Positions 1-16,892 of a stretch of DNA of 28,416 nucleotides are shown in pieces (within the stretch, counting starts at the first letter, position 1; each line of letters starts with the position of its first letter). The notes under the pieces are model-generated. The model did no database searches, was not told the origin of the DNA, and was given only the letters and a program-made list of their open reading frames with translations. Made by a program: the position numbers and the translations under genes. Source of the stretch: a virus; IMG/VR virus record IMGVR_UViG_3300035438_001527, positions 1 to 28,416 of that record; one strand, written 5' to 3'.

Positions 1-1770
1 CAAGGAGCTAAAGGTGATTTAGGTGCAAAAGGTGATTTAGGTGCAACAGGTGCAACAGGTGCTCAAGGAGCTAAAGGTGACTTAGGTGCTCAAGGAGCAA
101 AAGGTGATTTAGGACCTCAAGGTAATATTGGAAATACAGGTGCTCAAGGAGCTAAAGGTGATTTAGGACCTCAAGGTAATATTGGAAATACAGGTGCTCA
201 AGGAGCAAAAGGTGATTTAGGACCTCAAGGCAATATTGGAAATACAGGAGCTCAAGGAGCCAAAGGTGACTTAGGTGCAACAGGAGCTCAAGGAGCAAAA
301 GGTGACTTAGGTGCAACAGGAGCTCAAGGAGCAAAAGGTGACTTAGGTGCTCAAGGAGCAAAAGGTGACTTAGGTGCAATAGGAGCTCAAGGAGCTAAAG
401 GTGACTTAGGTGCAACAGGTGCTCAAGGTGCAAAAGGTGACTTAGGTGCTCAAGGTAGTTTAGGACCTCAAGGTAATATTGGAAATACAGGTGCTCAAGG
501 AGCAAAAGGTGATTTAGGACCTCAAGGCAATATTGGAAATACAGGAGCTAAAGGTGACTTAGGTGCAACAGGAGCTCAAGGAGCAAAAGGTGACTTAGGT
601 GCAACAGGTGCTCAAGGAGCAAAAGGTGACTTAGGTGCTCAAGGAGCAAAAGGTGACTTAGGTGCTCAAGGAGCAAAAGGTGACTTAGGTGCAACAGGTG
701 CTCAAGGAGCCAAAGGTGACTTAGGTGCAACAGGTGCTCAAGGAGCTAAAGGTGATTTAGGTGCAAAAGGTGATTTAGGTGCAACAGGTGCTCAAGGAGC
801 TAAAGGTGACTTAGGTGCTCAAGGAGCAAAAGGTGATTTAGGACCTCAAGGTAATATTGGAAATACAGGTGCTCAAGGAGCAAAAGGTGATCTAGGACCT
901 CAAGGTAATATTGGAAATACAGGTGCTCAAGGAGCAAAAGGTGATCTAGGACCTCAAGGTAATATTGGAAATACAGGTGCTCAAGGAGCTAAAGGTGATC
1001 AAGGAGCAACTGGGATTGGAATAGATGGTGCTCAAGGAGCTAAAGGTGATTTAGGTGCAACAGGAGCTCAAGGAGCAAAAGGTGATGCTGGAATTGGAAC
1101 TACTGGTGCTCAAGGAGCAAAAGGTGACTTAGGTGCAACAGGAGCTCAAGGAGCAAAAGGTGACTTAGGTGCAACAGGTGCTCAAGGAGCAAAAGGTGAC
1201 TTAGGTGCAACAGGAGCTCAAGGAGCAAAAGGTGACTTAGGTACAAAAGGAGATCAAGGAGCCAAAGGTGACTTAGGTACAAAAGGAGATCAAGGAGCAA
1301 CAGGAATTGGAATTGATGGAGCTCAAGGAGCTAAAGGTGACTTAGGTGCAACAGGTGCTCAAGGAGATAAAGGTGATACTGGAATTGGAACTACTGGAGC
1401 TCAAGGAGCTAAGGGTGAAATCGGTGTTACAGGTGCTCAAGGAGCTAAAGGCGAAATTGGTGTAAAAGGAGATCAAGGAGCTAAAGGTGACTTAGGTACA
1501 AAAGGAGATCAAGGTGCTCAAGGCGATTTAGGACCACAAGGTGCTCAAGGAGCAACAGGACCCGCTGGTTTATCTGGAGTTGATGGAGCGCAAGGTGCAA
1601 CTGGAACTGGAACTACTGGACCAACTGGACCAACTGGACCAACTGGAACAACTGGACCGACAGGTGCTCAAGGAGCTAAAGGTGACTTAGGTACAACAGG
1701 TGCTCAAGGAGCAAAAGGTGAAGTTGGTGTAAAAGGTGCTCAAGGAGCAACCGGAGCAGGAACACCAGGA
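1..1770 (+). repeat. Tandem Gly-X-Y coding repeats
   Basis: The DNA is built from short reiterated units such as GGTGCTCAAGGAGCAAAAGG and GGTAATATTGGAAATACAGG, combined in 18- to 45-base modules. This is coding repeat DNA within the fibre gene, not a CRISPR array: spacing is in multiples of nine bases and there are no unique spacers. Confidence 0.9.
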
Positions 1771-6590: not shown

Positions 6591-6824
6591 ATGGAAAATC
6601 ATTTCGATAAACTTATTAAGATCGTAGAATCTTGTGAAACTCCAGATCAAATGAATGTTAGATTCATTAATTGGTCTTTTAGAGCCCTAGAGCACATGAA
6701 AACTCTTTTTAATGATGAAGAGTATGATAAAAAAGTAAGAACACTAGCAAAAACAATTCAAAATAGAAGTATAGAAGTATATGCACAAACGAATCATATT
6801 AGCAGGACCGGGAGCATCGGGTAA
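6591..6824 (+). CDS. Small unknown phage protein overlapping the kinase gene
   Basis: 77 residues, MENHFDKLIKIVESC onward, largely alpha-helical. The ATG at 6591 lies just behind the previous stop. A start at 6537 in the same frame is possible but would overlap the previous gene by 50 bases. The 3' end overlaps the kinase start by 44 bases in another frame, which is long even for a phage. Family not recognised. Confidence 0.65.
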   Translation: MENHFDKLIKIVESCETPDQMNVRFINWSFRALEHMKTLFNDEEYDKKVRTLAKTIQNRSIEVYAQTNHISRTGSIG

Positions 6825-7260
6825 GGATCACATGAGAAAGCTATTGGAATCTAGAGGTTTCAAATACGCTGTAAGTTACACAACAAGACCACCAAGACCA
6901 GGTGAAATAGAAGGAGTCGACTATTACTTTTTAACAAAAGAACAATGTCAACAAATGAAAGATGCTGGTCTATTTTATGAAGTGATAGACTTTAATGGTT
7001 GGTCTTATGGAACTTCTTTGGCCCAATTTTATAATGATGATGTTTTTATCATGACACCTTCAGGTTTAGAACACTTAAAGACTGAAGATCGCGCGACCTC
7101 ATTAGTTATGTTCTTTGACATTGAAGAATCAATAAGAATGGAACGATTAGCAGCCAGAGTAATGCCAGGACATTCAGTCGAAGCCAGATTACAAGCCGAC
7201 AGAGATTTATTTGCCGGATTTACAAACTATGACGTTAGGATTTCTGATCCTAACTTTTAA
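6781..7260 (+). CDS. gmk: Guanylate kinase-like nucleotide kinase
   Basis: 159 residues. The Walker A region is AGPGASGKDH (residues 8-17), with Asp where guanylate kinases have Ser/Thr; a GKD P-loop is known from T4 dNMP kinase. The GMP-binding hallmark VSYTTRPPRPGE (31-42) followed by GVDYYFL is that of guanylate kinases. The late Arg cluster RMERLAARV and the end NYDVRISD fit the family, but the protein is about 40 residues shorter than the bacterial enzyme. It would supply (d)GDP for phage replication. The altered P-loop could mean changed activity. Confidence 0.82.
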   Translation: MHKRIILAGPGASGKDHMRKLLESRGFKYAVSYTTRPPRPGEIEGVDYYFLTKEQCQQMKDAGLFYEVIDFNGWSYGTSLAQFYNDDVFIMTPSGLEHLKTEDRATSLVMFFDIEESIRMERLAARVMPGHSVEARLQADRDLFAGFTNYDVRISDPNF

Positions 7261-9301: not shown

Positions 9302-9349
9302 TTTAAAATAAAAGTGTCCGGTTTAAAAAGAATGTATTATATTAGCAGT

Positions 9350-10000
9350 ATGAATAACCAAAATAAAAACAGCAAACGTATGAAAGTAAAAAACAATAAC
9401 CTAAGCTATCGTGAATTAGCAGAAAATTTTGTAGCAACTAAATCTGAATCAGATTATGTGCAATTGTATAAAAAAGTTAAACCAGGTTTAAGATCTTATA
9501 TCTTTAAAACTGTTAAGGACTCTGCTGCAGCTGAAGATATTTTGACTAATACATTGACTAAGTTGTGGACCAAGATTGATCAGTATGATCCTCAGTATCA
9601 AATTACAACATGGTTATATCGCATTGCATTCAACGAGTGTCTTGGTTGGATTCGTGAACGTAATCGTAAGTATTCTTTGGATTCTATGCAAGAATTTGGT
9701 TTAGACATTGAAGAATCAACTGGTAAACTTACAAGTAACATTTCTGATTTGATGGAAGATTACGAAATGAAATCTGAAGCTGATTATTTAGCTGAAGATG
9801 CAGAACTTGATAGAGTTTATGAATCTACTTTGATGGCAATGGATAAGTTGAAACCAATATATAAGAATATACTTGTTGATCGAATCATCAATGAAATGAA
9901 ATACGAAGATTTGGCTGATAAGTATAAATTACCTTTGCAAACTATCAAAAATAGAATTCGTCGAGGTCGCTTATTGGTGATCGAGATGGTCGAAGCATAA
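9350..10000 (+). CDS. Phage sigma factor, sigma-70 family (ECF-like)
   Basis: About 216 residues with only region 2 and region 4. Region 2 runs from LRSYIFKTVKDSAAAEDILT through KLWTKIDQYDPQYQITTWLYRIAFNECLGWIRERNRK, typical for core-polymerase binding and -10 recognition. Region 4 is the C-terminal LKPIYKNILVDRIINEMKYEDLADKYKL with the helix-turn-helix PLQTIKNRIRRGRLLV. Between them is a 70-residue acidic linker. The start is uncertain: GTG 9314, ATG 9350 or ATG 9380. The class B-like motif at 9338-9355 would favour 9380 if it is active. It would redirect host RNA polymerase to phage promoters, perhaps the class A set in this window. Stop and next ATG overlap (TAATG). Confidence 0.88.
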   Translation: MNNQNKNSKRMKVKNNNLSYRELAENFVATKSESDYVQLYKKVKPGLRSYIFKTVKDSAAAEDILTNTLTKLWTKIDQYDPQYQITTWLYRIAFNECLGWIRERNRKYSLDSMQEFGLDIEESTGKLTSNISDLMEDYEMKSEADYLAEDAELDRVYESTLMAMDKLKPIYKNILVDRIINEMKYEDLADKYKLPLQTIKNRIRRGRLLVIEMVEA

Positions 10001-11322: not shown

Positions 11323-11398
11323 GGTGCGGTAGCTCAGATGGTAGAGCACAGGACTGAAAATCCTGGTGTCGGCGGTTCGATCCCGCCCCGCACCACCA
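11323..11398 (+). tRNA. tRNA-Phe(GAA)
   Basis: Acceptor GGTGCGG/CCGCACC, anticodon stem CAGGA/TCCTG with loop CTGAAAA (GAA), T-loop TTCGATC, discriminator A. The 3' CCA is encoded (11396-11398). Confidence 0.95.
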
Positions 11399-11405
11399 GA
11401 ATAAA

Positions 11406-11427
11406 TGTTCTTTGACATATTGGTAAA
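11406..11427 (+). promoter_or_regulatory. boxA-like antitermination site, copy 1
   Basis: TGTTCTTTGACATATTGG followed by TAAA. It resembles rRNA-leader boxA (E. coli GCTCTTTAACA, B. subtilis GTTCTTTGAAAA), which recruits NusB/NusE. It sits between tRNA-Phe and tRNA-Cys. Confidence 0.65.
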
Positions 11428-11430
11428 TTT

Positions 11431-11500
11431 GTATAAGTTGATCTTGGAGGTCAGTAGGTCTGCAAAATCTACGGAGTTGGTTCGATTCCAACCTTATACT
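11431..11500 (+). tRNA. tRNA-Cys(GCA)
   Basis: Acceptor GTATAAG/CTTATAC, D-stem GATC/GGTC, anticodon stem TAGGT/ATCTA with loop CTGCAAA (GCA), T-stem TTGG/CCAA with loop TTCGATT, discriminator T. A compact tRNA of 70 bases. Confidence 0.88.
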
Positions 11501-11503
11501 CAA

Positions 11504-11565
11504 TGTCCTGTACCCTTGAGAAACTCGTATCAAGTTAGTATGATTGACTGTGGATAAGCAGGACA
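11504..11565 (+). ncRNA. Structured spacer RNA closed by 7-bp stem
   Basis: TGTCCTG (11504-11510) pairs perfectly with CAGGACA (11559-11565). Inside is CTTGA/TCAAG. The size of 62 bases is near that of a tRNA, but no T-arm or anticodon arm is present. Function unknown. Confidence 0.4.
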
Positions 11566-11601
11566 GCACGAAATAAAGGGGTAAGAGAATAAGTGCACTA
11601 T

Positions 11602-11677
11602 CGGGATGTGGACTAATTGGCTAAGTCGCCACTTTTGGGAAGTGGACATCATCCAGGTTCGAGTCCTGGTATCCCGA
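11602..11677 (+). tRNA. tRNA-Pro(TGG)
   Basis: Acceptor CGGGATG/TATCCCG, D-stem GACT/AGTC, anticodon stem CCACT/AGTGG with loop TTTGGGA (TGG), T-stem CCAGG/CCTGG with loop TTCGAGT, discriminator A. Confidence 0.93.
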
Positions 11678-11683
11678 CAAAAA

Positions 11684-11695
11684 TGTTCGTAACTT
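11684..11695 (+). promoter_or_regulatory. TGTTCGTAACTT element, copy 3
   Basis: Identical 12-mer to 5865 and 9290, 30 bases upstream of class B copy 3. Confidence 0.45.
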
Positions 11696-11725
11696 CTGAA
11701 AAATAGTTGCAAATAAATTTTTTAT

Positions 11726-11758
11726 TGTCAAGTATTTCGTTTATATTTACTGTATAAT
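11726..11758 (+). promoter_or_regulatory. Class B promoter-like motif, copy 3, driving the tRNA array
   Basis: TGTCAA, 10 bases, TATATTTAC, 2 bases, TATAAT. boxA copy 2 follows 12 bases later, so any transcript would carry boxA at its 5' end, as rRNA operons do. Confidence 0.65.
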
Positions 11759-11769
11759 TAAAAACAAAA

Positions 11770-11791
11770 GATCTTTGACATATTGGTAAAA
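11770..11791 (+). promoter_or_regulatory. boxA-like antitermination site, copy 2
   Basis: GATCTTTGACATATTGG then TAAAAT, directly after the class B promoter and two bases before the first tRNA-like gene of the array. Confidence 0.65.
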
Positions 11792-11792
11792 T

Positions 11793-11886
11793 AATCATAA
11801 GCCCATTGGTTGGGAGCACCCCTCAAGGTTGAATCTTTGGATTCTTTATTGTAAAGCTGGAATTGGTTCGAATCCAATTATGATTA
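11793..11886 (+). tRNA. Atypical tRNA, possibly Leu(CAA)
   Basis: Acceptor AATCATA/TATGATT, D-arm CCCA/TGGG with GG in the loop, and T-arm ATTGG/CCAAT with TTCGAAT are all intact. The part between is not canonical: a weak hairpin around CCTCAAGG, then GAATC/GATTC and CTTTA/TAAAG hairpins, enclosed by AGC/GCT. If CTCAAGG is the anticodon loop the anticodon is CAA (Leu) with a long variable region, but the stem pairs poorly. It may be a degenerate or decoy tRNA. Confidence 0.45.
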
Positions 11887-11891
11887 CAAAC

Positions 11892-11988
11892 AGTCAGTCT
11901 TCAGAATGGTATCTGTATGACTACATGATAAACCACAAGGCTCAGAAAGTCAATCTTGTGGCTGTAGGTTCGAATCCTACACTGACTA
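11892..11988 (+). tRNA. tRNA-like RNA with abnormal anticodon domain
   Basis: Acceptor AGTCAGT/ACTGACT and T-arm GTAGG/CCTAC with TTCGAAT are perfect; a D-arm CAG/CTG with AATGGTAT loop is plausible. The middle has a 7-bp stem CCACAAG/CTTGTGG with a 15-base loop, preceded by 17 bases that do not form an anticodon stem. At 97 bases no clear anticodon can be given. Confidence 0.45.
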
Positions 11989-12001
11989 CAAAGTCCAGGA
12001 G

Positions 12002-12045
12002 TAATTAACTTGGTACCTGAGGTGTTCGAAAACCTCGATTGATTA
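12002..12045 (+). ncRNA. Small stem-loop RNA with T-arm-like loop
   Basis: TAATTAA/TTGATTA (one G-T) encloses GAGGT/ACCTC with loop GTTCGAAA. It overlaps the start of the next tRNA-like element, so the two are alternative or joint folds. Confidence 0.3.
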
Positions 12046-12112
12046 TGGTGTAAAGGTGCACAGCAGAACGTAATAGGGACGCAAGATTAAGGTTCAATTC
12101 CTTTTTAGTCAG
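12040..12112 (+). tRNA. Degenerate tRNA-like element
   Basis: D-stem GTGT/GCAC with AAAGGT, T-stem AAGG/CCTT with TTCAATT, and acceptor TGATTAT/TTAGTCA (6 of 7 pairs). The expected anticodon arm has only CGT/ACG around AATAGGG and lacks T33. Probably a decayed tRNA or a tRNA-like RNA. Confidence 0.4.
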
Positions 12113-12118
12113 CAATTT

Positions 12119-12204
12119 GGATCGGTTGAGCAATTGGTTGGCTCAGCGGACTGTAAATCCGCCCTCTTACGAGCATGTAGGTTCGAGTCCTACCCGGTCC
12201 ACCA
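12119..12204 (+). tRNA. tRNA-Tyr(GTA)
   Basis: Acceptor GGATCGG/CCGGTCC, anticodon stem GCGGA/TCCGC with loop CTGTAAA (GTA), long variable arm, T-stem GTAGG/CCTAC, CCA encoded (12202-12204). Confidence 0.95.
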
Positions 12205-12212
12205 AGAAAGTT

Positions 12213-12289
12213 GATTGGGGAATAGTATACTGTAACCTGATGATGGAGGTGGTATATAAGAGTTTGGAATCATCTTAGTAATGCCAATC
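12213..12289 (+). ncRNA. Structured spacer RNA followed by terminator
   Basis: GATTGG (12213-12218) pairs with CCAATC (12284-12289). Inside, GATGAT (12239-12244) pairs with ATCATC (12269-12274) and AGTATACT is a self-complementary octamer. It has no tRNA arms and ends just before a terminator hairpin, so it may be a discrete small RNA. Confidence 0.45.
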
Positions 12290-12292
12290 GTA

Positions 12293-12335
12293 AAAACAGA
12301 TGTCCACTGAACCATCTTCTGTTTTCTTTCTTTTT
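12293..12335 (+). terminator. Terminator inside the tRNA array
   Basis: AAAACAG(ATG)/(CAT)..CTGTTTT hairpin with a loop of about 10 bases, followed by CTTTCTTTTT. It would stop the first third of the array unless transcription is antiterminated. Confidence 0.65.
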
Positions 12336-12337
12336 AC

Positions 12338-12408
12338 ACGTTTGTGGTGCAATGGTAGCATACCGGTCTCCAAAACCGTTGATGGGGGTTCGAATCCCTC
12401 CAAGCGTG
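12338..12408 (+). tRNA. tRNA-Trp(CCA)
   Basis: Acceptor ACGTTTG/CAAGCGT, anticodon stem CGGT/ACCG with loop CTCCAAA (CCA), T-loop TTCGAAT, discriminator G. Confidence 0.93.
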
Positions 12409-12413
12409 CAAAT

Positions 12414-12490
12414 GGTCCTTTAGCTCAGTTGGTTAGAGCGCCGCACTCATAATGCGAGGGTCACAGGTTCAAATCCTGTAGGGACCACCA
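12414..12490 (+). tRNA. tRNA with CAT anticodon (Met or Ile2), first
   Basis: Acceptor GGTCCTT/AGGGACC, D-stem GCTC/GAGC, loop CTCATAA between CGCA/TGCG, T-loop TTCAAAT, CCA encoded. Elongator Met or lysidine-modified Ile cannot be told apart by eye. Confidence 0.9.
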
Positions 12491-12494
12491 ACAT

Positions 12495-12566
12495 AGTTTA
12501 TTAGTTCAATGGATAGAACACTTGACTACGGATCAAGAGATAAGGGTTCGAATCCTTTATAAACTA
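12495..12566 (+). tRNA. tRNA-Arg(ACG)
   Basis: Acceptor AGTTTAT/ATAAACT, anticodon stem CTTGA/TCAAG with loop CTACGGA (ACG), T-loop TTCGAAT. A34 would need the host deaminase TadA to read CGC/CGA. Confidence 0.93.
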
Positions 12567-12572
12567 CTAAAT

Positions 12573-12646
12573 TGCGATATGGTAGAGTTGGTTTCTTACG
12601 ATGCTCTCATAAGGCATAGACACTGGTTCGAGTCCAGTTGTCGCAA
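12573..12646 (+). tRNA. tRNA with CAT anticodon (Met or Ile2), second
   Basis: Acceptor TGCGATA/TGTCGCA, D-stem GTAG/TTAC, anticodon stem ATGCT/GGCAT with loop CTCATAA, T-stem ACTGG/CCAGT with TTCGAGT, discriminator A. Confidence 0.88.
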
Positions 12647-12655
12647 CAAAAATTT

Positions 12656-12729
12656 GATCTCGTAGCTCAGTTGGCTAGAGCACCTCACTTTTAATGAGGG
12701 AGTCAAGGGTTCGAGTCCCTTCGGGATCA
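12656..12729 (+). tRNA. tRNA-Lys(TTT)
   Basis: Acceptor GATCTCG/CGGGATC (same as the Arg-TCT tRNA at 2850), anticodon stem CCTCA/TGAGG with loop CTTTTAA (TTT), T-loop TTCGAGT. Confidence 0.95.
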
Positions 12730-12732
12730 CAA

Positions 12733-12819
12733 ACTTCATTTATAATACTACGATCTCTCAGTTAAAAGCTGTCGTAGAGTAAAGTTATAGTCCGACATGG
12801 CTATTGGTTATAATGAAGT
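12733..12819 (+). ncRNA. Structured RNA with 12-bp closing stem
   Basis: ACTTCATTTATAA pairs with TTATAATGAAGT (12 bp, one bulged T). Inside are two hairpins: CTACGA/TCGTAG with inner CAG/CTG, and ATAGtCC/GGCTAT around GACAT. The ends lie 3 and 4 bases from the neighbouring tRNAs Lys and Val, so it would be released by tRNA processing. No tRNA features. Confidence 0.6.
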
Positions 12820-12823
12820 ATTT

Positions 12824-12898
12824 GCTCTCTTAGCTCAGTTGGTTTAGAGCGCTGCCCTTACAAGGCAGATGTCGTAGGTTCGAATCCTACAGAGAGCA
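12824..12898 (+). tRNA. tRNA-Val(TAC)
   Basis: Acceptor GCTCTCT/AGAGAGC, anticodon stem CTGCC/GGCAG with loop CTTACAA (TAC), T-stem GTAGG/CCTAC. Confidence 0.95.
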
Positions 12899-12902
12899 CT
12901 CG

Positions 12903-12987
12903 CCGCACAAAGTGTGGAGGAACTGGCCAGAGATTTATTCTTGCAAACTCGATGCCGAAAGTCGAGCTGCCCATCTACGGGATGGGC
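12903..12987 (+). ncRNA. Three-hairpin spacer RNA
   Basis: Hairpins CCGCAC/GTGTGG (loop AAA), CTCGA/TCGAG and GCCCAT/ATGGGC lie in sequence between tRNA-Val and tRNA-His. The last is followed by TTT, so it could terminate or serve as a processing signal. Confidence 0.45.
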
Positions 12988-12992
12988 TTTAT

Positions 12993-13066
12993 GGTGGATG
13001 TAGCTCAATCGGGAGAGCGTTGGTTTGTGGAACCAAAGGTAGTGGGATCGAAACCCATCATTCACC
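12993..13066 (+). tRNA. tRNA-His(GTG)
   Basis: G-1 opposite C73, acceptor GTGGATG/CATTCAC, D-stem GCTC/GAGC, anticodon stem TTGGT/ACCAA with loop TTGTGGA (GTG). The T-loop ATCGAAA starts with A instead of T54, unusual. Confidence 0.92.
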
Positions 13067-13071
13067 CAAAT

Positions 13072-13158
13072 GGAAGATTGTCAGAGTGGTCTATCGTATC
13101 TCTTTGCTAAAGAGATGGTCGCGAAAGCGGCCCAGAGGTTCGAATCCTTTATCTTCCG
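13072..13158 (+). tRNA. tRNA-Ser(GCT)
   Basis: Acceptor GGAAGAT/ATCTTCC, anticodon stem TCTCT/AGAGA with loop TTGCTAA (GCT), long variable arm, T-loop TTCGAAT, discriminator G. Confidence 0.94.
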
Positions 13159-13187
13159 CTTAATTTTGATAAATAATAAATGAAGTT

Positions 13188-13217
13188 TTGAAACATACAA
13201 GCTTTGGTCTGTATAAC
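13188..13217 (+). promoter_or_regulatory. Class A phage promoter before tRNA-Leu
   Basis: TTGAAAC (13188-13194) and TATAAC (13212-13217) with 17 bases between. It drives tRNA-Leu(TAA) and the epimerase. Confidence 0.75.
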
Positions 13218-13254
13218 TAACATAACGTTCTTAAAATTATAAACGAATTAAAAT

Positions 13255-13340
13255 GCACTCGTGGTGAAATAGGTAGACACGAGGGACTTAAAATCCCTTG
13301 GCCAGTGATGGTCGTGCCGGTTCGATTCCGGCCGAGTGTA
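13255..13340 (+). tRNA. tRNA-Leu(TAA)
   Basis: Acceptor GCACTCG/CGAGTGT (G-T first pair), anticodon stem AGGGA/TCCCT with loop CTTAAAA (TAA), long variable arm, T-stem GCCGG/CCGGC. Confidence 0.94.
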
Positions 13341-13348
13341 CAAAAAGT

Positions 13349-14221
13349 ATGGCAAAAGCATTAGTTACAGGTGGAGCAGGTTTTATTGGATCTAATTTGG
13401 TCGACTTCTTATTAAAGGAAGGACACGAAGTTGAGGTTTGGGATGACTTATCCACTGGTAAACTTGAAAGACTTTCTAAAGAAGTAGAATTCAAAAGATT
13501 AGACTTAACTAGAGATGTTCTACCAGATATTGAAGTTGATTGGGTATTTCACTTAGCAGCACCAGTATCTGTTCAAGAATCTTTGGAAAATCCATCTAAA
13601 TATATGTATGGTTGTTTTGGTACAACTTATAGAATGTTAGATTGGTCTAGAAGAAATAGTGCTAAGAGCTTTACGTTAGCATCGACCGCTGCTGTGTATG
13701 GAGAAACAGAACAAATACCTGTTAAAGAAACAGATGAATTGAATCCTATTTCTCCATACGCTGAATGGAAATTAAAAGCTGAAGATTGTTTAAGCATGTA
13801 CAAATCATATTTTACATGTACAGCACTCAGATTCTTTAATGTCTATGGCAACGGTCAAAGTAGCACTGGAAGTTATGCTCCAGCTGTTGCAAGATTTTTA
13901 GATCAATATAGATCTGAACAACCAATAACAGTGACAGGTTCTGGCTTACAAACCAGAGATTATGTCAATGTTAATGATATATGTTCAGCACTATATGAAT
14001 CTGGAAAAAGAATTGGACCATTCTTAATAATGAATGTTGGATCAGGCAAAGAAATAGCTATCTTAGACATAGCAAAAGCCTTTGAAACAAATATAACATT
14101 CATTGATAAAAGAAAAGAACCAATGAGATCTGGAGCTGATATTACTTTAATTAAAAGTAAATTAGCATGGAGACCAAAGGAAAATATCTTTGAATGGATC
14201 AAACATAATTTAGATCTTTGA
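13349..14221 (+). CDS. NAD-dependent epimerase/dehydratase (extended SDR)
   Basis: A 290-residue Rossmann enzyme of the UDP-glucose 4-epimerase type. It has TGGAGFIGSN (residues 7-16) for NAD, Asp32-Asp33 at the end of strand 2, and HLAAPVSVQESLENP. The catalytic Ser/Thr is in ASTAAVYGE (111-119), with Tyr137 and Lys141 in SPYAEWK. RFFNVYG and RDYVNVNDI are substrate-domain hallmarks. It likely makes a nucleotide sugar for glycosylating virion or DNA. ATG 13349 lies nine bases after tRNA-Leu; a longer frame back to 13298 runs through the tRNA and is rejected. The TGA stop lies inside boxA copy 3. Confidence 0.92.
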   Translation: MAKALVTGGAGFIGSNLVDFLLKEGHEVEVWDDLSTGKLERLSKEVEFKRLDLTRDVLPDIEVDWVFHLAAPVSVQESLENPSKYMYGCFGTTYRMLDWSRRNSAKSFTLASTAAVYGETEQIPVKETDELNPISPYAEWKLKAEDCLSMYKSYFTCTALRFFNVYGNGQSSTGSYAPAVARFLDQYRSEQPITVTGSGLQTRDYVNVNDICSALYESGKRIGPFLIMNVGSGKEIAILDIAKAFETNITFIDKRKEPMRSGADITLIKSKLAWRPKENIFEWIKHNLDL

Positions 14222-14234
14222 CATATTGGTAAAA
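14214..14234 (+). promoter_or_regulatory. boxA-like antitermination site, copy 3
   Basis: ATCTTTGACATATTGG then TAAAA. The epimerase stop TGA is part of the motif, so antitermination would be reloaded exactly where translation ends and untranslated RNA resumes. Confidence 0.65.
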
Positions 14235-14244
14235 TAAAGAAATT

Positions 14245-14299
14245 AGGATGCATACAGCAAATTTAAAAACTTTTATTGGAAAAAGCAAAACTGCATCCT
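14245..14299 (+). ncRNA. Spacer RNA with 8-bp closing stem
   Basis: AGGATGCA (14245-14252) pairs perfectly with TGCATCCT (14292-14299), enclosing 39 A-rich bases. It lies between boxA copy 3 and tRNA-Ile. Confidence 0.45.
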
Positions 14300-14306
14300 G
14301 TTAAAT

Positions 14307-14380
14307 AGACACTTAGCTCAATTGGTTAGAGCATTCGCCTGATACGCGAAAGGTTACAAGTTCGATTCTTGTAGTGTCTA
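14307..14380 (+). tRNA. tRNA-Ile(GAT)
   Basis: Acceptor AGACACT/AGTGTCT, anticodon stem TTCGC/GCGAA with loop CTGATAC (GAT), T-stem ACAAG/CTTGT. Confidence 0.95.
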
Positions 14381-14386
14381 CGCAGA

Positions 14387-14513
14387 AATCCAACACAACG
14401 ACGACTTGCAAACAAAGTATTCTAGTGATAGAAGCAGTCATCCAAGTATGATTTGGAACGTGCACTGGTAGGCAACCAACCTATATTATGATACGAGCTA
14501 ATACTTGTGGATT
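14387..14513 (+). ncRNA. Structured spacer RNA
   Basis: AATCCA (14387-14392) pairs with TGGATT (14508-14513). Inside are TTCTA/TAGAA with loop GTGA, and TAGG/CCTA. A further hairpin ATCAG/CTGAT follows at about 14523-14539, before tRNA-Asp. The fold is approximate. Confidence 0.4.
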
Positions 14514-14545
14514 AAAGGTGACGATCAGGAAAGACTGATAATTTT

Positions 14546-14617
14546 GGTCTCATAGTTAATCGGCTATAATATTGCCCTGTCACGGCAAAGTGCCGGGTTC
14601 GATTCCCGGTGGGACCG
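14546..14617 (+). tRNA. tRNA-Asp(GTC)
   Basis: Acceptor GGTCTCA/TGGGACC, anticodon stem TTGCC/GGCAA with loop CTGTCAC (GTC), T-loop TTCGATT, discriminator G. Confidence 0.95.
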
Positions 14618-14629
14618 CAAACGATTGTT

Positions 14630-14645
14630 GTTCTTTGACATACTA
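14630..14645 (+). promoter_or_regulatory. boxA-like site, copy 4 (shorter)
   Basis: GTTCTTTGACATACTA; the 3' half diverges from the other copies. It lies between tRNA-Asp and the membrane-protein gene. Confidence 0.55.
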
Positions 14646-14665
14646 AAAAATAAAAATTAAAAAAT

Positions 14666-15016
14666 ATGGATACAATATCATTTATTTTAGGAATGTCCTC
14701 GGTGGTGGTTATCGCAATTGCGGTGGTTGCTGTCACAGGATTTTTTAAGGTCAGAAATGTTGAGAAACAATTCAATAACTACGAACAAAACTTTATGGTT
14801 GAGTTTGATAGTAGAACAAAAGAAATTCACGATAATATAAATTATGTAAATAATGATTTAAATCGTAGAATTGATGAAGAAGGCAATGAATTAAATCGTA
14901 GAATTGATAACACAGAAAGAGAAATCTTTTCCCAATTAGATTCTCGATTAGATAAATTGGAAACTAAATTGACAGACACAATTAAAAACGGTTGTGATCC
15001 TGTTAAAAATAATTAA
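14666..15016 (+). CDS. Small membrane-anchored coiled-coil protein
   Basis: 116 residues. One N-terminal transmembrane helix (about residues 8-27, SSVVVIAIAVVAVTGFF) is followed by a polar coiled coil with repeats NDLNRRIDEEGNELNRRID and DSRLDKLETKL. The layout, with a short N-terminus, one helix and a long coiled coil, recalls inner-membrane spanins, but no outer-membrane partner is adjacent. A similar architecture occurs at 26183. It is the only protein gene between tRNA-Asp and tRNA-Leu(TAG). Confidence 0.78.
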   Translation: MDTISFILGMSSVVVIAIAVVAVTGFFKVRNVEKQFNNYEQNFMVEFDSRTKEIHDNINYVNNDLNRRIDEEGNELNRRIDNTEREIFSQLDSRLDKLETKLTDTIKNGCDPVKNN

Positions 15017-15064
15017 CGAGTCATAAGACATAATAAATAAATCGTTAAAGACAATAATCGTTAT

Positions 15065-15138
15065 TACCCTTTCGTCTAATGGCAGGACAGCTGGTTTTGG
15101 TCCAGCTAATCGAGGTTCGAGTCCTTGAGGGGTAACCA
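15065..15138 (+). tRNA. tRNA-Gln(TTG)
   Basis: Acceptor TACCCTT/AGGGGTA, anticodon stem GCTGG/CCAGC with loop TTTTGGT (TTG), T-stem CGAGG/CCTTG, CCA encoded. Confidence 0.94.
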
Positions 15139-15143
15139 AACAT

Positions 15144-15219
15144 AGCGGGTTGGTAGAAGTGGTATCTCGCGAGCCTCATAAGCTCGAGGTCGGGGGTTCG
15201 AATCCCTCACCCGCAACCA
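15144..15219 (+). tRNA. tRNA with CAT anticodon (Met family), third
   Basis: Anticodon stem CGAGC/GCTCG with loop CTCATAA. Acceptor AGCGGGT/ACCCGCA has an unpaired first position (A1/A72), which is initiator-like, but the anticodon stem lacks the three G-C pairs of initiators. CCA encoded. Confidence 0.88.
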
Positions 15220-15221
15220 AA

Positions 15222-15298
15222 TGAAGTGTAGCTCAGTGACATTAATGAGAGCAAGTCGTAAAAGACCGTGACGGTAGGTTGAATTCCTCCCACTTCAT
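15222..15298 (+). tRNA. tRNA-like element with broken anticodon arm
   Basis: Acceptor TGAAGTG/CACTTCA is perfect and a D-arm GCTC..GAGAGC is present. The T-arm is altered (GTAGG/CCTCC, loop TTGAATT). The anticodon region shows only GTC/GAC around GTAAAA, so no anticodon can be assigned. Confidence 0.4.
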
Positions 15299-15302
15299 AT
15301 TT

Positions 15303-15374
15303 GGTCCCATCGTCTATCGGTTAGGACATCAGGTTTTCATCCTGAAAAGTCGGGTTCGACTCCCGGTGGGACTA
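15303..15374 (+). tRNA. tRNA-Glu(TTC)
   Basis: Acceptor GGTCCCA/TGGGACT, anticodon stem TCAGG/CCTGA with loop TTTTCAT (TTC), T-loop TTCGACT. Confidence 0.94.
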
Positions 15375-15376
15375 CT

Positions 15377-15517
15377 AAGAATAACTGTCACTCCATTCAA
15401 TGTGATGTCGACAATCACGAATGGATCAAAGTGTTCATCACCCTCAGCCTAGGCCTAGAGAAAACTCTAATGAAGCTGTTAAGATTGGAGCGAGACGGGT
15501 ACTCCAAAGTTATTCTT
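15377..15517 (+). ncRNA. Highly structured 141-base RNA
   Basis: A perfect 10-bp closing stem AAGAATAACT/AGTTATTCTT. Inside are CCATTC/GAATGG stacked over GTGAT/ATCAC with the 7-base loop GTCGACA, then TAGAG/CTCTA with loop AAAA, and TTGGAG/CTCCAA. This multi-branched fold is bounded 2 bases after tRNA-Glu and 4 bases before tRNA-Ala. I do not recognise a known RNA class. Confidence 0.7.
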
Positions 15518-15521
15518 AAAT

Positions 15522-15595
15522 GGGGAATTAGCTCAGCTGGCTAGAGCGCCTGCCTTGCACGCAGGAGGTCATCGGTTCGACTCCGATATTCTCCA
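15522..15595 (+). tRNA. tRNA-Ala(TGC)
   Basis: Acceptor GGGGAAT/ATTCTCC, anticodon stem CCTGC/GCAGG with loop CTTGCAC (TGC), T-loop TTCGACT. Confidence 0.95.
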
Positions 15596-15597
15596 CT

Positions 15598-15799
15598 ATT
15601 GATGATGAAATAGTAATTAAACGAGTATCCAGAGGGAACACTGCCAGAATCCCACAACAGATAGGACGGAGAAAAGTTAATGAAAGACAATGGCGCATCG
15701 GGAACTCACACAGGCCGCAATCTGTAATCGAGTATGAAGAGTACATACCAATAGCTCTCTTTATCCCGCAATGGTAAGAAAAATGGTCGACTCATCAAT
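15598..15799 (+). ncRNA. Structured 202-base spacer RNA
   Basis: ATTGATGA (15598-15605) pairs with TCATCAAT (15792-15799), 8 bp. An inner stem TACCA/TGGTA is seen; the rest is G/A-rich and its fold is unclear by eye. The ends lie 2 bases after tRNA-Ala and 4 bases before tRNA-Asn. Confidence 0.5.
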
Positions 15800-15803
15800 A
15801 AAT

Positions 15804-15875
15804 TCCTCGGTAGCTCAGCGGTAGAGCACGCGACTGTTAATCGTGTGGTCGTAGGTTCAAATCCTACCCGGGGAG
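15804..15875 (+). tRNA. tRNA-Asn(GTT)
   Basis: Acceptor TCCTCGG/CCGGGGA, anticodon stem CGCGA/TCGTG with loop CTGTTAA (GTT), T-stem GTAGG/CCTAC. Confidence 0.94.
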
Positions 15876-15985
15876 CAACTTAAAACCGATTCGGGTTCGA
15901 CGTAAAATGGATCCTGCGCCTTGAAATATAGACAAAACGTCATTAAATATCCATCATTGAAGGTGTCATCGGTGACCTTCTAATT
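15876..15985 (+). ncRNA. Spacer with hairpins
   Basis: GACGT/ACGTC (long range), ATGGAT/ATCCAT, and a strong hairpin GAAGG/CCTTC with inner TCA/TGA (about 15958-15980). It contains GGGTTCGACG, which resembles a T-arm half but has no partner. Less well defined than the other spacers. Confidence 0.35.
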
Positions 15986-16061
15986 GCGAATATCGTATAA
16001 TGGCTTATTACTCCAGCCTTCCAAGTTGGAGATCTCAGTTCGATTCTGAGTATTCGCTCCA
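15986..16061 (+). tRNA. tRNA-Gly(TCC)
   Basis: Acceptor GCGAATA/TATTCGC, anticodon stem CCAGC/GTTGG with loop CTTCCAA (TCC), T-stem CTCAG/CTGAG, discriminator T, CCA encoded. Confidence 0.94.
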
Positions 16062-16085
16062 AATTTTACCAATATGTAAATAAAT

Positions 16086-16167
16086 GCCTGAGTGGTGGAA
16101 TTGGTAGTCACGCCAGATTTAGGATCTGGTGCCGAAAGGCGTGTCGGTTCGAGTCCGACCTTGGGTA
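16086..16167 (+). tRNA. tRNA-Leu(TAG)
   Basis: Acceptor GCCTGAG/CTTGGGT with several G-T pairs, anticodon stem CCAGA/TCTGG with loop TTTAGGA (TAG), variable arm, T-stem GTCGG/CCGAC. Last tRNA of the main array. Confidence 0.93.
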
Positions 16168-16193
16168 CAAAAATAATAGATATATAAGCCAAT

Positions 16194-16892
16194 ATGTCAA
16201 AGTTAAAATCATTTTCTGAATTCGCTGGATTTAAAGAAGTCGATGCTCTTGGTTACGGCAACGAAGCTAAGAAACATCGCTTAACATATTCCAAAGAAAA
16301 ACCAGTTATCATTAAGATGACCAAAGAAAATGGTGTCTATGAACAACTCTTACACTTTCAAAATCCAAGAAATTCAAGTCAAGAAACTCTTTCTGAAATA
16401 GAAGAAAATATATCTTTGCAAAAAGAATTAAGCGATTCAGAAATTGAGTTTATTAAAAGAGCTGAAACTGACATGTTACTTTTAATCAATGAAAGATTAA
16501 TTGAACTAGGTGGAACTGATGAGATGCTTCTTCTACAAGCAGTAACTGCATTTACAGATCCTTTGCTTTATAAGTTAAAACATTTTTATAATAGACCAAG
16601 ACCTGCTCAATTAGCAAGAGCATTAGATTTAGAATTGTATCCTGTAATTCCTACTAATGCCTCAAGTGCAGCTTATCCAAGTGGACATGCTCTTGATTCA
16701 TATACATGTGGTTGGATCATTGGTCAAAAATATCCTGAATTAGCTGATCAAATTTCAACTTTTTGTGAAGAAGTAGCTTTTACCAGAATTCAGGCTGGTG
16801 TACACTACAGATCTGATGCTGATTTTTCTAAAATCATCTTTGATAAATTAGTAGAATCACAGACAATAACCTTGGATTATTTTTTATTGTAA
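16194..16892 (+). CDS. PAP2-superfamily phosphatase
   Basis: A 232-residue acid phosphatase/PAP2 protein with all three signature motifs: K-x6-RP as Lys129...Arg136-Pro137 in KHFYNRPRP, PSGH at 162-165, and R-x5-H-x3-D as Arg198, His204 and Asp208 in TRIQAGVHYRSD. It resembles soluble class A acid phosphatases rather than membrane lipid phosphatases, because no transmembrane helices are seen. The N-terminus MSKLKSFSEFAGFKE has no signal peptide and resembles the capsid-targeting leaders of T4 head-packaged proteins. The reaction is phosphomonoester hydrolysis; the substrate is unknown. Its 3' end overlaps the convergent minus-strand gene by nine bases. Confidence 0.88.
   Translation: MSKLKSFSEFAGFKEVDALGYGNEAKKHRLTYSKEKPVIIKMTKENGVYEQLLHFQNPRNSSQETLSEIEENISLQKELSDSEIEFIKRAETDMLLLINERLIELGGTDEMLLLQAVTAFTDPLLYKLKHFYNRPRPAQLARALDLELYPVIPTNASSAAYPSGHALDSYTCGWIIGQKYPELADQISTFCEEVAFTRIQAGVHYRSDADFSKIIFDKLVESQTITLDYFLL

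Follow-up and report, generated by a model that had tools for sequence, protein, structure and literature searches.

How does a phage transcribe a long run of transfer RNA (tRNA) genes to its end? The RNA of such an array is a long, structured stretch that is not translated, so that Rho would be expected to cut it short, yet to our knowledge there is little work on how phages get such arrays transcribed. The question is raised by a 28.4 kb stretch of a virus record (IMG/VR record IMGVR_UViG_3300035438_001527, positions 1 to 28,416; hereafter the window), in which a family comparison of the proteins recognised phage genes including a tail fibre and an endolysin. ARAGORN, run on the whole window, called 26 tRNAs that cover all 20 amino acids on this one phage contig, and 22 of the 26 lie on the plus strand within 11323-16168. 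An original prediction had claimed four boxA sites of the ribosomal RNA (rRNA) type in the array, and four copies of GTTCTTTGACATATTGG or a close variant were indeed found on its strand, starting at 11407, 11770, 14213 and 14630. We think it probable, on the comparisons set out below, that host NusB-S10 antitermination is loaded from these rRNA-type boxA sites onto the phage tRNA operons.

The four copies can be distinguished by their surroundings as well as by their letters. Copy 1 (GTTCTTTGACATATTGG, beginning GTTC; 11407-11423, plus strand, as are all four) follows tRNA-Phe and stands 7 nucleotides (nt) before tRNA-Cys. Copy 2 (GATCTTTGACATATTGG, beginning GATC; 11770-11786) has a tRNA-like stretch directly behind it, with the next tRNA called by ARAGORN 332 nt downstream. 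Copy 3, again GATCTTTGACATATTGG with its GATC start (14213-14229), lies over the stop codon of an epimerase open reading frame (ORF), and tRNA-Ile starts after 77 nt. Copy 4 (GTTCTTTGACATACTAA, beginning GTTC; 14630-14646) has a diverged 3' end and follows tRNA-Asp, 19 nt before an ORF that begins at 14666. Expressed as a 14-mer, CTTTGACATATTGG, the element is present exactly at 11410-11423, 11773-11786 and 14216-14229 and in a form with three mismatches, CTTTGACATACTAA, at 14633-14646, all on the plus strand. Allowing up to three mismatches, the window holds 13 matches to the 14-mer against a mean of 4.3 in shuffled sequence (maximum 11), and none of 100 shuffles reached 13.

We used the best 23S rRNA matches to sample host loci from three groups (30, 30 and 29 new loci); in the first and the second group one locus was dropped because its upstream sequence was too short. 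For Flavobacteriaceae (the family of genome G001), 122 of 249 genomes matched the query and the best 30 of 122 loci were taken, 29 being evaluable; for Sphingobacteriales (the order to which the Pedobacter genome G005 belongs), 54 of 61 genomes matched and the best 30 of 54 loci were taken, again with 29 evaluable; and for the order of G004 (a Cryomorphaceae metagenome-assembled genome, or MAG, taken as Flavobacteriales), 59 of 119 genomes matched and the best 29 of 59 loci were taken. The exact 17-mer GTTCTTTGACATATTGG is present in the 16S-23S spacer of all 29 evaluable Sphingobacteriales loci, a sample that leans to box-bearing genomes because its query began at the box itself. The queries for the Flavobacteriaceae and Flavobacteriales samples contained no box. 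All 29 evaluable Flavobacteriaceae loci carry GTTCATTGACATATTG followed by A or G, 113-218 nt before the 23S match and with one or two mismatches to GTTCTTTGACATATTGG, and 27 of the 29 Flavobacteriales loci carry a spacer boxA within three mismatches; 200 shuffled motifs gave means of 0 to 0.01 loci. The original prediction had named a lack of the element in host rRNA leaders as one thing that would speak against it, and here the rRNA operons do carry the same element, in the spacer.

An exact search of a genome collection for a 16-mer within the element gave at least 120 copies, with titles outside Bacteroidota included and some of them probably chance matches in genes. Among the matches listed, a short 23S signature follows within 450 nt in 47 of 120, and 40 of those 47 also have a 16S 3'-end signature upstream. 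The identification of GTTCTTTGACATATTGG as the Bacteroidota form of rRNA boxA, 17 nt long, is on this sequence identity well supported. As separate observations, a Bacteroidota-type box also stands in the 16S-23S spacer of three records with titles outside Bacteroidota (L144; L229, Glaciecola amylolytica; and L168, a Microcoleus MAG), for which mislabelled or mixed assemblies are one possibility, and one Flavobacteriales locus has GTTCTTTGACGTATTGT in its spacer.

The likeness had first been drawn to the boxA of rRNA leaders, and this stands only in part: the core is present in some 16S leaders, but the match is weaker than that to the boxA of the 16S-23S spacer. A CTTTGA core was found in 12 of 33 16S leaders and in none of the remaining 21. 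Aligning 19 Flavobacteriaceae 16S leaders, as the prediction had suggested, gave best matches with two to six mismatches, the commonest forms being GTTCATAAACATATTGA (five leaders) and GTTCATTAACATATTGA (three), whereas the spacers are one or two bases off. Since the leaders match less well than the spacers, the closest counterpart is the spacer boxA and not the leader boxA. A second boxA upstream of 23S is described for E. coli and many other species in a passage of PMC4807359. The form in the window is CTTTGACAT and that in Flavobacteriaceae spacers CATTGACAT; because the window has CTTTGAC and not CATTGAC, a host outside Flavobacteriaceae is more likely, provided that phage and host forms agree, an agreement that is only weakly borne out.

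Is the coupling of box and array peculiar to this window? An exact scan of IMG/VR for the 16-mer TTCTTTGACATATTGG gave at least 120 stretches, with 124 matches in 111 distinct contexts; what is said below of these viral sites, and of the 120 host copies, applies among the matches listed. A tRNA begins on the same strand within 20 nt downstream of 56 of the 111 copies, at a distance of 6-13 nt, and within 30 nt of 57, where random positions in the same viral loci would give 1.6 and 2.2; in contrast, not one of the 120 host copies has a tRNA within 30 nt. A tRNA lies within 500 nt of 78 of the 111 contexts, and 107 of the 111 copies fall outside ORFs of at least 120 amino acids, although 47% of random positions fall inside them. 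The base before the queried 16-mer, which was outside the query, is G at 98% of the 57 near-tRNA viral sites, which makes the full element 17 nt or longer; the same G is found in host spacers. The flanks had been described as T-rich, a description that the viral sites do not bear out, positions -7 to -3 of the 57 being A-rich instead (46-61% A, 25-32% T).

A distance this regular could also mark a processing signal in the 5' leader of the tRNA, read by RNase P or another nuclease. In 56 of the 57 near sites the tRNA begins 6-13 nt behind the box, which would suit such a signal. However, only one of the 22 tRNAs of the window's array has a box within 30 nt upstream, copies also stand before ORFs, before 23S rRNA (at about 50-220 nt) and before other untranslated stretches, and none of the 120 host copies lies within 30 nt before a tRNA (for two of them less than 110 nt of downstream sequence is present), one copy instead abutting a transfer-messenger RNA (tmRNA). 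We regard a processing signal as highly improbable.

A second set of loci was assembled blind to the motif, using as marker the phage sigma-70-type factor gene of the window (9314-10000, plus strand), which lies 1.3 kb upstream of the tRNA array. The set comprises 73 of 80 loci with relatives of this factor at up to 66% identity (L258-L330), seven near-identical loci (L251-L257) having been left out, and 50 of the 73 loci carry tRNAs, 486 in total. At up to three mismatches GTTCTTTGACATATTGG has 63 matches in these loci, of which 42, in 28 loci, are followed by a tRNA within 25 nt; 200 shuffled motifs gave on average 5.9 matches (maximum 39) and 0.02 near tRNAs (maximum 3). With repeated contexts removed, 46 sites are left, 28 of them within 25 nt and 36 within 200 nt of a tRNA, and a stricter key for distinct contexts leaves 34 sites within 200 nt. 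Thirty-one of the 38 strand-arrays with at least five tRNAs hold a box, and inside these 38 arrays there are, repeats kept, 50 sense copies, one antisense copy and no copy of the reversed control. The link between boxA and tRNA arrays is general and not a quirk of the window, and an element with the sequence of rRNA-type boxA is recurrent in the tRNA arrays of a large set of Bacteroidota-like phages, their hosts being inferred from the boxes and from named relatives.

Recurrence between tRNAs would also be expected of a recombination seed, that is, a short conserved repeat used to shuffle phage tRNA cassettes. Exact copies do recur between tRNAs, and locus L122 shares with the window the box and a similar tRNA behind it, but has a different tRNA in front (the sigma factor of the L122 contig, L322, is 62% identical). 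This explanation leaves unaccounted for the identity with host rRNA spacers, the 50:1 strand bias within arrays and the promoter-like spacing described below, and we give it almost no weight.

Two of the window's copies stand at the same distance behind a promoter-like sequence. Copy 2 lies 28 nt downstream of the -7-like element TATATTTA (11742-11749, plus strand), which is one base off TAnnTTTG, and copy 3 lies 28 nt downstream of TATCTTTG (14185-14192, plus strand), within the 3' end of the epimerase ORF. The Flavobacterium -7 box TAnnTTTG is described as spanning -12 to -5 in a passage of PMC6847099; the spacing would therefore put boxA at about +17, with a predicted start for copy 2 at about 11754. 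A promoter had been proposed 12 bases before one copy, and here TATATTTA at 11742, 28 nt before the copy, is a likelier candidate than TATAAT at 11753. The same spacing is seen in the motif-blind set, where a plain TAnnTTT stands 26-30 nt upstream of 19 of 34 sites (random positions 2.0%, shuffles of the same stretches 3.3%), and a widened -7-like pattern at the same 26-30 nt is present at 23 of 34 (random 60-nt stretches 4.7%). In the exact set, strict TAnnTTTG occurs between -60 and -12 at 14 of the 57 near-tRNA sites, where about 2.3 would be expected.

Given this spacing, the element could itself be a promoter or an initially transcribed region read by a phage or host sigma factor, and not an RNA signal at all. 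The TAnnTTT box at 19 of 34 motif-blind sites, the phage sigma gene upstream of the array and the TTGACA contained in the element are all in keeping with that idea. On the other side, 15 of the 34 motif-blind sites and two of the four copies in the window have no such box, and the host copy lies in the middle of an operon, between 16S and 23S. Upstream of the 57 near-tRNA viral sites, moreover, we found a promoter-like box at 10, a tRNA within 40 nt at 20 and a terminator-like hairpin directly before the element at 17 (random 1.1%), with some overlap between these classes. None of the 57 near-tRNA and none of the 54 other sites is arranged so that the TTTG within the element could act as a -33 box, which would need a TAnnTTTG 19-21 nt further downstream. 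We consider a promoter element very improbable.

In E. coli, NusB-S10 binds boxA, and boxA is both necessary and sufficient for the formation of a Rho-resistant rRNA antitermination complex, as passages of PMC10250234 and PMC4807359 describe. By the reading that we favour, the phage would have placed boxA 5' of its own tRNA operons. At copies 2 and 3, polymerase would start at the promoter with its -7 box 28 nt upstream and would transcribe boxA at about nucleotide 17 of the RNA, and at copies 1 and 4 it would arrive from the preceding tRNA. Host NusB-S10 would then bind boxA and, with NusA and NusG, turn polymerase into an rRNA-type antitermination complex, which would resist Rho over the next 0.4-2.4 kb, mostly untranslated, until the next boxA reloads it. 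A nusB gene (TIGR01951) scores over the cut-off in all 41 genomes of the candidate host order Sphingobacteriales (that of G005), and copy 2 is unpaired in the predicted RNA fold. Judged by letters and placement, an antitermination function of the phage boxes is likely.

A closely related possibility is that boxA does recruit the rRNA-type Nus complex and that the main benefit to the phage is faster elongation, or help with folding and processing, and not resistance to Rho. The E. coli rRNA complex raises the elongation rate, and an RNA-chaperone activity has been proposed for it (passages of PMC4807359 and PMC10250234). The short 6-13 nt distance to the tRNA at 56 of 57 near-tRNA sites would fit such a role, as would two host copies that abut a tmRNA gene, although in the window and in relatives there are also sites 53-332 nt from any called tRNA. 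The observations made here do not tell this possibility and antitermination apart; we nevertheless hold it to be rather unlikely as the main benefit. In L240, a Tenacibaculum contig, the box (6814-6829, minus strand) overlaps the first 2 nt of the tmRNA gene called by ARAGORN, and in L468 the variant GACGTATTG (1501-1515, minus strand) overlaps the first 1 nt of one, which suggests that boxA serves ssrA too in some Bacteroidota.

Compared with the boxA of rRNA operons, the phage boxes share the 17-nt sequence of the Bacteroidota spacer, a position 5' of what would be long untranslated structured stable RNA and a presumed dependence on host factors. They differ in that they precede tRNA arrays, with up to four boxes per array here and no 16S or 23S, and in that the predicted transcripts would reach the box at about +17 in the case of copies 2 and 3. 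The nut sites of lambdoid phages likewise contain a phage boxA that recruits host Nus factors (passages of PMC4807359 and PMC10250234), whereas the phage box here has the rRNA form and its target is tRNA, not early mRNA. None of 20 window proteins compared with PHROGs belongs to an N-like family or is a Nus factor, the window being part of a phage genome, and no short hairpin of the boxB kind lies directly 3' of the box in the predicted fold of copy 2, the folds having been made from the window alone.

A further parallel comes from CRISPR arrays, upstream of which Stringer and colleagues reportedly described boxA in eLife in 2020, protecting the long untranslated array from Rho. That case concerns a bacterial locus, while the boxes here belong to phage tRNA arrays in Bacteroidota viruses. 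We found no account of boxA at phage tRNA arrays in the titles and abstract openings listed, including a search for the letters TCTTTGACAT, a weak negative that covered few subscription papers. The consensus of the Rfam family RF02956 (DUF2693 RNA) begins GaUCUUUGACAUAcUUGAUA and so has a boxA-like 5' end, to which copy 4 shows a weak match. Membership of that family was rejected: where the gathering score is 81.3 bits, the window's matches reach 20.2 and 19.5, with an alignment that spans the 5' end, and at gathering scores Rfam finds solely tRNAs in the window.

Several observations weigh against the loading of antitermination from boxA. In the window itself, no -7-like box lies within 70 nt upstream of copy 1 or copy 4. 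Copy 4, whose 3' end is degenerate, stands before an ORF and not a tRNA, and the predicted folds show partial pairing of copies 1, 3 and 4. The weaker match of the 16S leaders noted above belongs here too. As for the promoter spacing, the widened -7-like pattern was drawn up after the motif-blind sites had been seen, and strict TAnnTTTG is found at only two of 36 motif-blind sites, which suggests that a variant of the box is in use here; the 14 strict boxes of the exact set stand anywhere from 12 to 46 nt upstream, and the spacing is thus not fixed everywhere. Thirteen of the 57 near-tRNA sites follow no promoter-like box, terminator or tRNA. The 17 sites directly behind a terminator-like hairpin also count on this side, since a box right behind a terminator leaves little room for a promoter and polymerase may have to read through. 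The phage variants GTTATTTGAC and GTTAATTGAC alter core positions that would be expected to matter for NusB-S10 (TTATTTGAC is another variant among the phages). Finally, at up to four mismatches no box is found at the array of Bacteroides phage crAss001, nor, at up to two, an E. coli-type boxA before the tRNAs of coliphage T5. Both arrays are large like that of the window, with 23 tRNAs each called by ARAGORN in the stretches read, and differ in having no host-type boxA before the tRNAs at the mismatches allowed. Arrays can therefore do without boxA, and the arrangement is not universal.

The 16-mer also has a third setting in host genomes, which counts against exclusivity as well. Among the listed host copies it is extended as TTTACA or TTTACT in 17 of 120 and as ATTACCG in five of 120, in Bacteroidales and other Bacteroidia by title (loci including L133, L140, L151, L153, L205, L220, L224 and L244). 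In 17 of these 22 extended copies a TAnnTTTG box lies within 150 nt downstream, before seemingly different genes, and no Rfam match was found in 14 loci, two of them with a different extension. The sequence is thus not exclusive to rRNA and tRNA leaders.

If phage boxes are read by host NusB-S10, do they follow changes in host boxes? Over the first 792 bases compared, the relative L256 shares 92% identity with the window, and one and the same A-to-G change is seen in both of the box copies covered, which read GACGTATTGG. In L256 the promoter region before copy 2, including TATATTTA, and tRNA-Cys are unchanged, and the tRNA-Pro unit between the boxes has diverged. The same A-to-G change is present in the spacer boxA of a few hosts, as GACGTATTGA or GACGTATTGT, and in the Flavobacteriales locus with GTTCTTTGACGTATTGT. 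The form TTCTTTGACGTATTG occurs in nine of 395 sampled genomes of the phylum, at 11 places (a reversed control occurs in four genomes), and at three places in two of the genomes it has 23S downstream and tRNA-Ala upstream, the next base there being A. This parallel change in both L256 copies is the only clean case of co-variation that we saw. Strict co-variation of box variants between host and phage was not found, some arrays mixing CTTTGAC and CATTGAC forms, and the likeness among the box variants of a single array exceeds chance only weakly (281 of 5000 permutations), a further point against the favoured reading.

We also searched for named phages, using a 30-base consensus that matched 81 phage-collection records, five of the 60 listed being examined together with Flavobacterium phage immuto. 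No box lies directly before a tRNA in these six records. Prevotella phage Lak-A2 (L248) has two boxes about 110 nt apart, at about 5003 and 5113, each shortly after TATCTTTG and lying between tRNAs. A single box in Bacteroides LoVEphage (L247, about 2507) lies between a helix-turn-helix gene and recombination genes, a placement like that of a lambda nut site. Flavobacterium phage immuto has a diverged box before a small ORF, and Cellulophaga phi46:3 and Flavobacterium MaF61 and V181 have no box core at the match. One weak boxA candidate was seen in Vibrio phage Chloris.

The array itself falls into three parts on the plus strand. The first runs from tRNA-Phe to tRNA-Leu(taa) (11323-13341), about 2.0 kb that contain no recognised gene, and is separated from the rest by an ORF for a nucleotide-sugar epimerase (13298-14221). 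With its listed start this ORF would run into tRNA-Leu; a likelier start is the in-frame ATG at 13349. A stretch from tRNA-Ile to tRNA-Asp follows (14307-14618, ARAGORN), and behind boxA copy 4 there is a small ORF (14666-15016) with a hydrophobic N terminus, for which no Pfam family was found at the cut-off. Flavobacterium phage immuto (L245, 3276-3581) likewise has a small ORF whose N terminus is hydrophobic, preceded by a diverged box that comes right after a tRNA. The last part, about 1.1 kb, runs from tRNA-Gln to tRNA-Leu(tag) (15065-16168). The sigma factor has relatives in a phage collection at 23-37% identity (30 of 36 matches being listed).

Between the tRNAs are stretches that ARAGORN did not call, at 11503-11600, 11791-11890, 11893-11990, 12205-12330, 12900-12993, 15222-15300, 15380-15521 and 15600-15800. 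Some show complementarity resembling a T arm or an acceptor stem by eye, and they may be tRNAs that have diverged or are interrupted, or some other structured RNA; the stretch at 11503 has a look-alike behind a box in L020. In L085, L088 and L116, and more loosely in L051, a similar sequence (taagacaataaac and onward) lies behind the box with no tRNA called downstream, a candidate for an uncharacterised RNA.

Two matches lie on the opposite strand. An exact copy of the 14-mer is found on the minus strand at 16189-16202, over the ATG (16194) of a PAP2-like ORF, and is kept in the relative L337, and at 16066-16078, also on the minus strand, there is a 13-nt reverse complement of the 3' half of boxA with TAAA behind it. 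These copies, of 14 and 13 nt, could pair with boxA RNA. A role as anti-boxA was rejected, as there is one antisense copy in 38 related strand-arrays and the 16066-16078 match is lost in L337; both are probably chance or unrelated.

The promoter-boxA-tRNA unit offers a concrete answer to how the array may be transcribed in many Bacteroidota phages, and it joins phage tRNA biology to the host's production of ribosomes. The 17-nt Bacteroidota boxA, outlined here from 87 sampled rRNA spacers and 111 viral contexts among the matches listed, also provides a short sequence with which to find stable-RNA operons and perhaps to narrow down the hosts of uncultured Bacteroidota viruses. More tentatively, and with somewhat less than even confidence, we suggest that phages across Bacteroidota could use rRNA boxA generally as the signal from which their long untranslated RNAs are loaded. 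Phages with a full tRNA set would then capture the host complex without a phage N protein, reload it at each promoter or interruption and track changes in the host boxA, and through their several boxes they may also draw NusB-S10 off the host's own rRNA operons in the course of infection.

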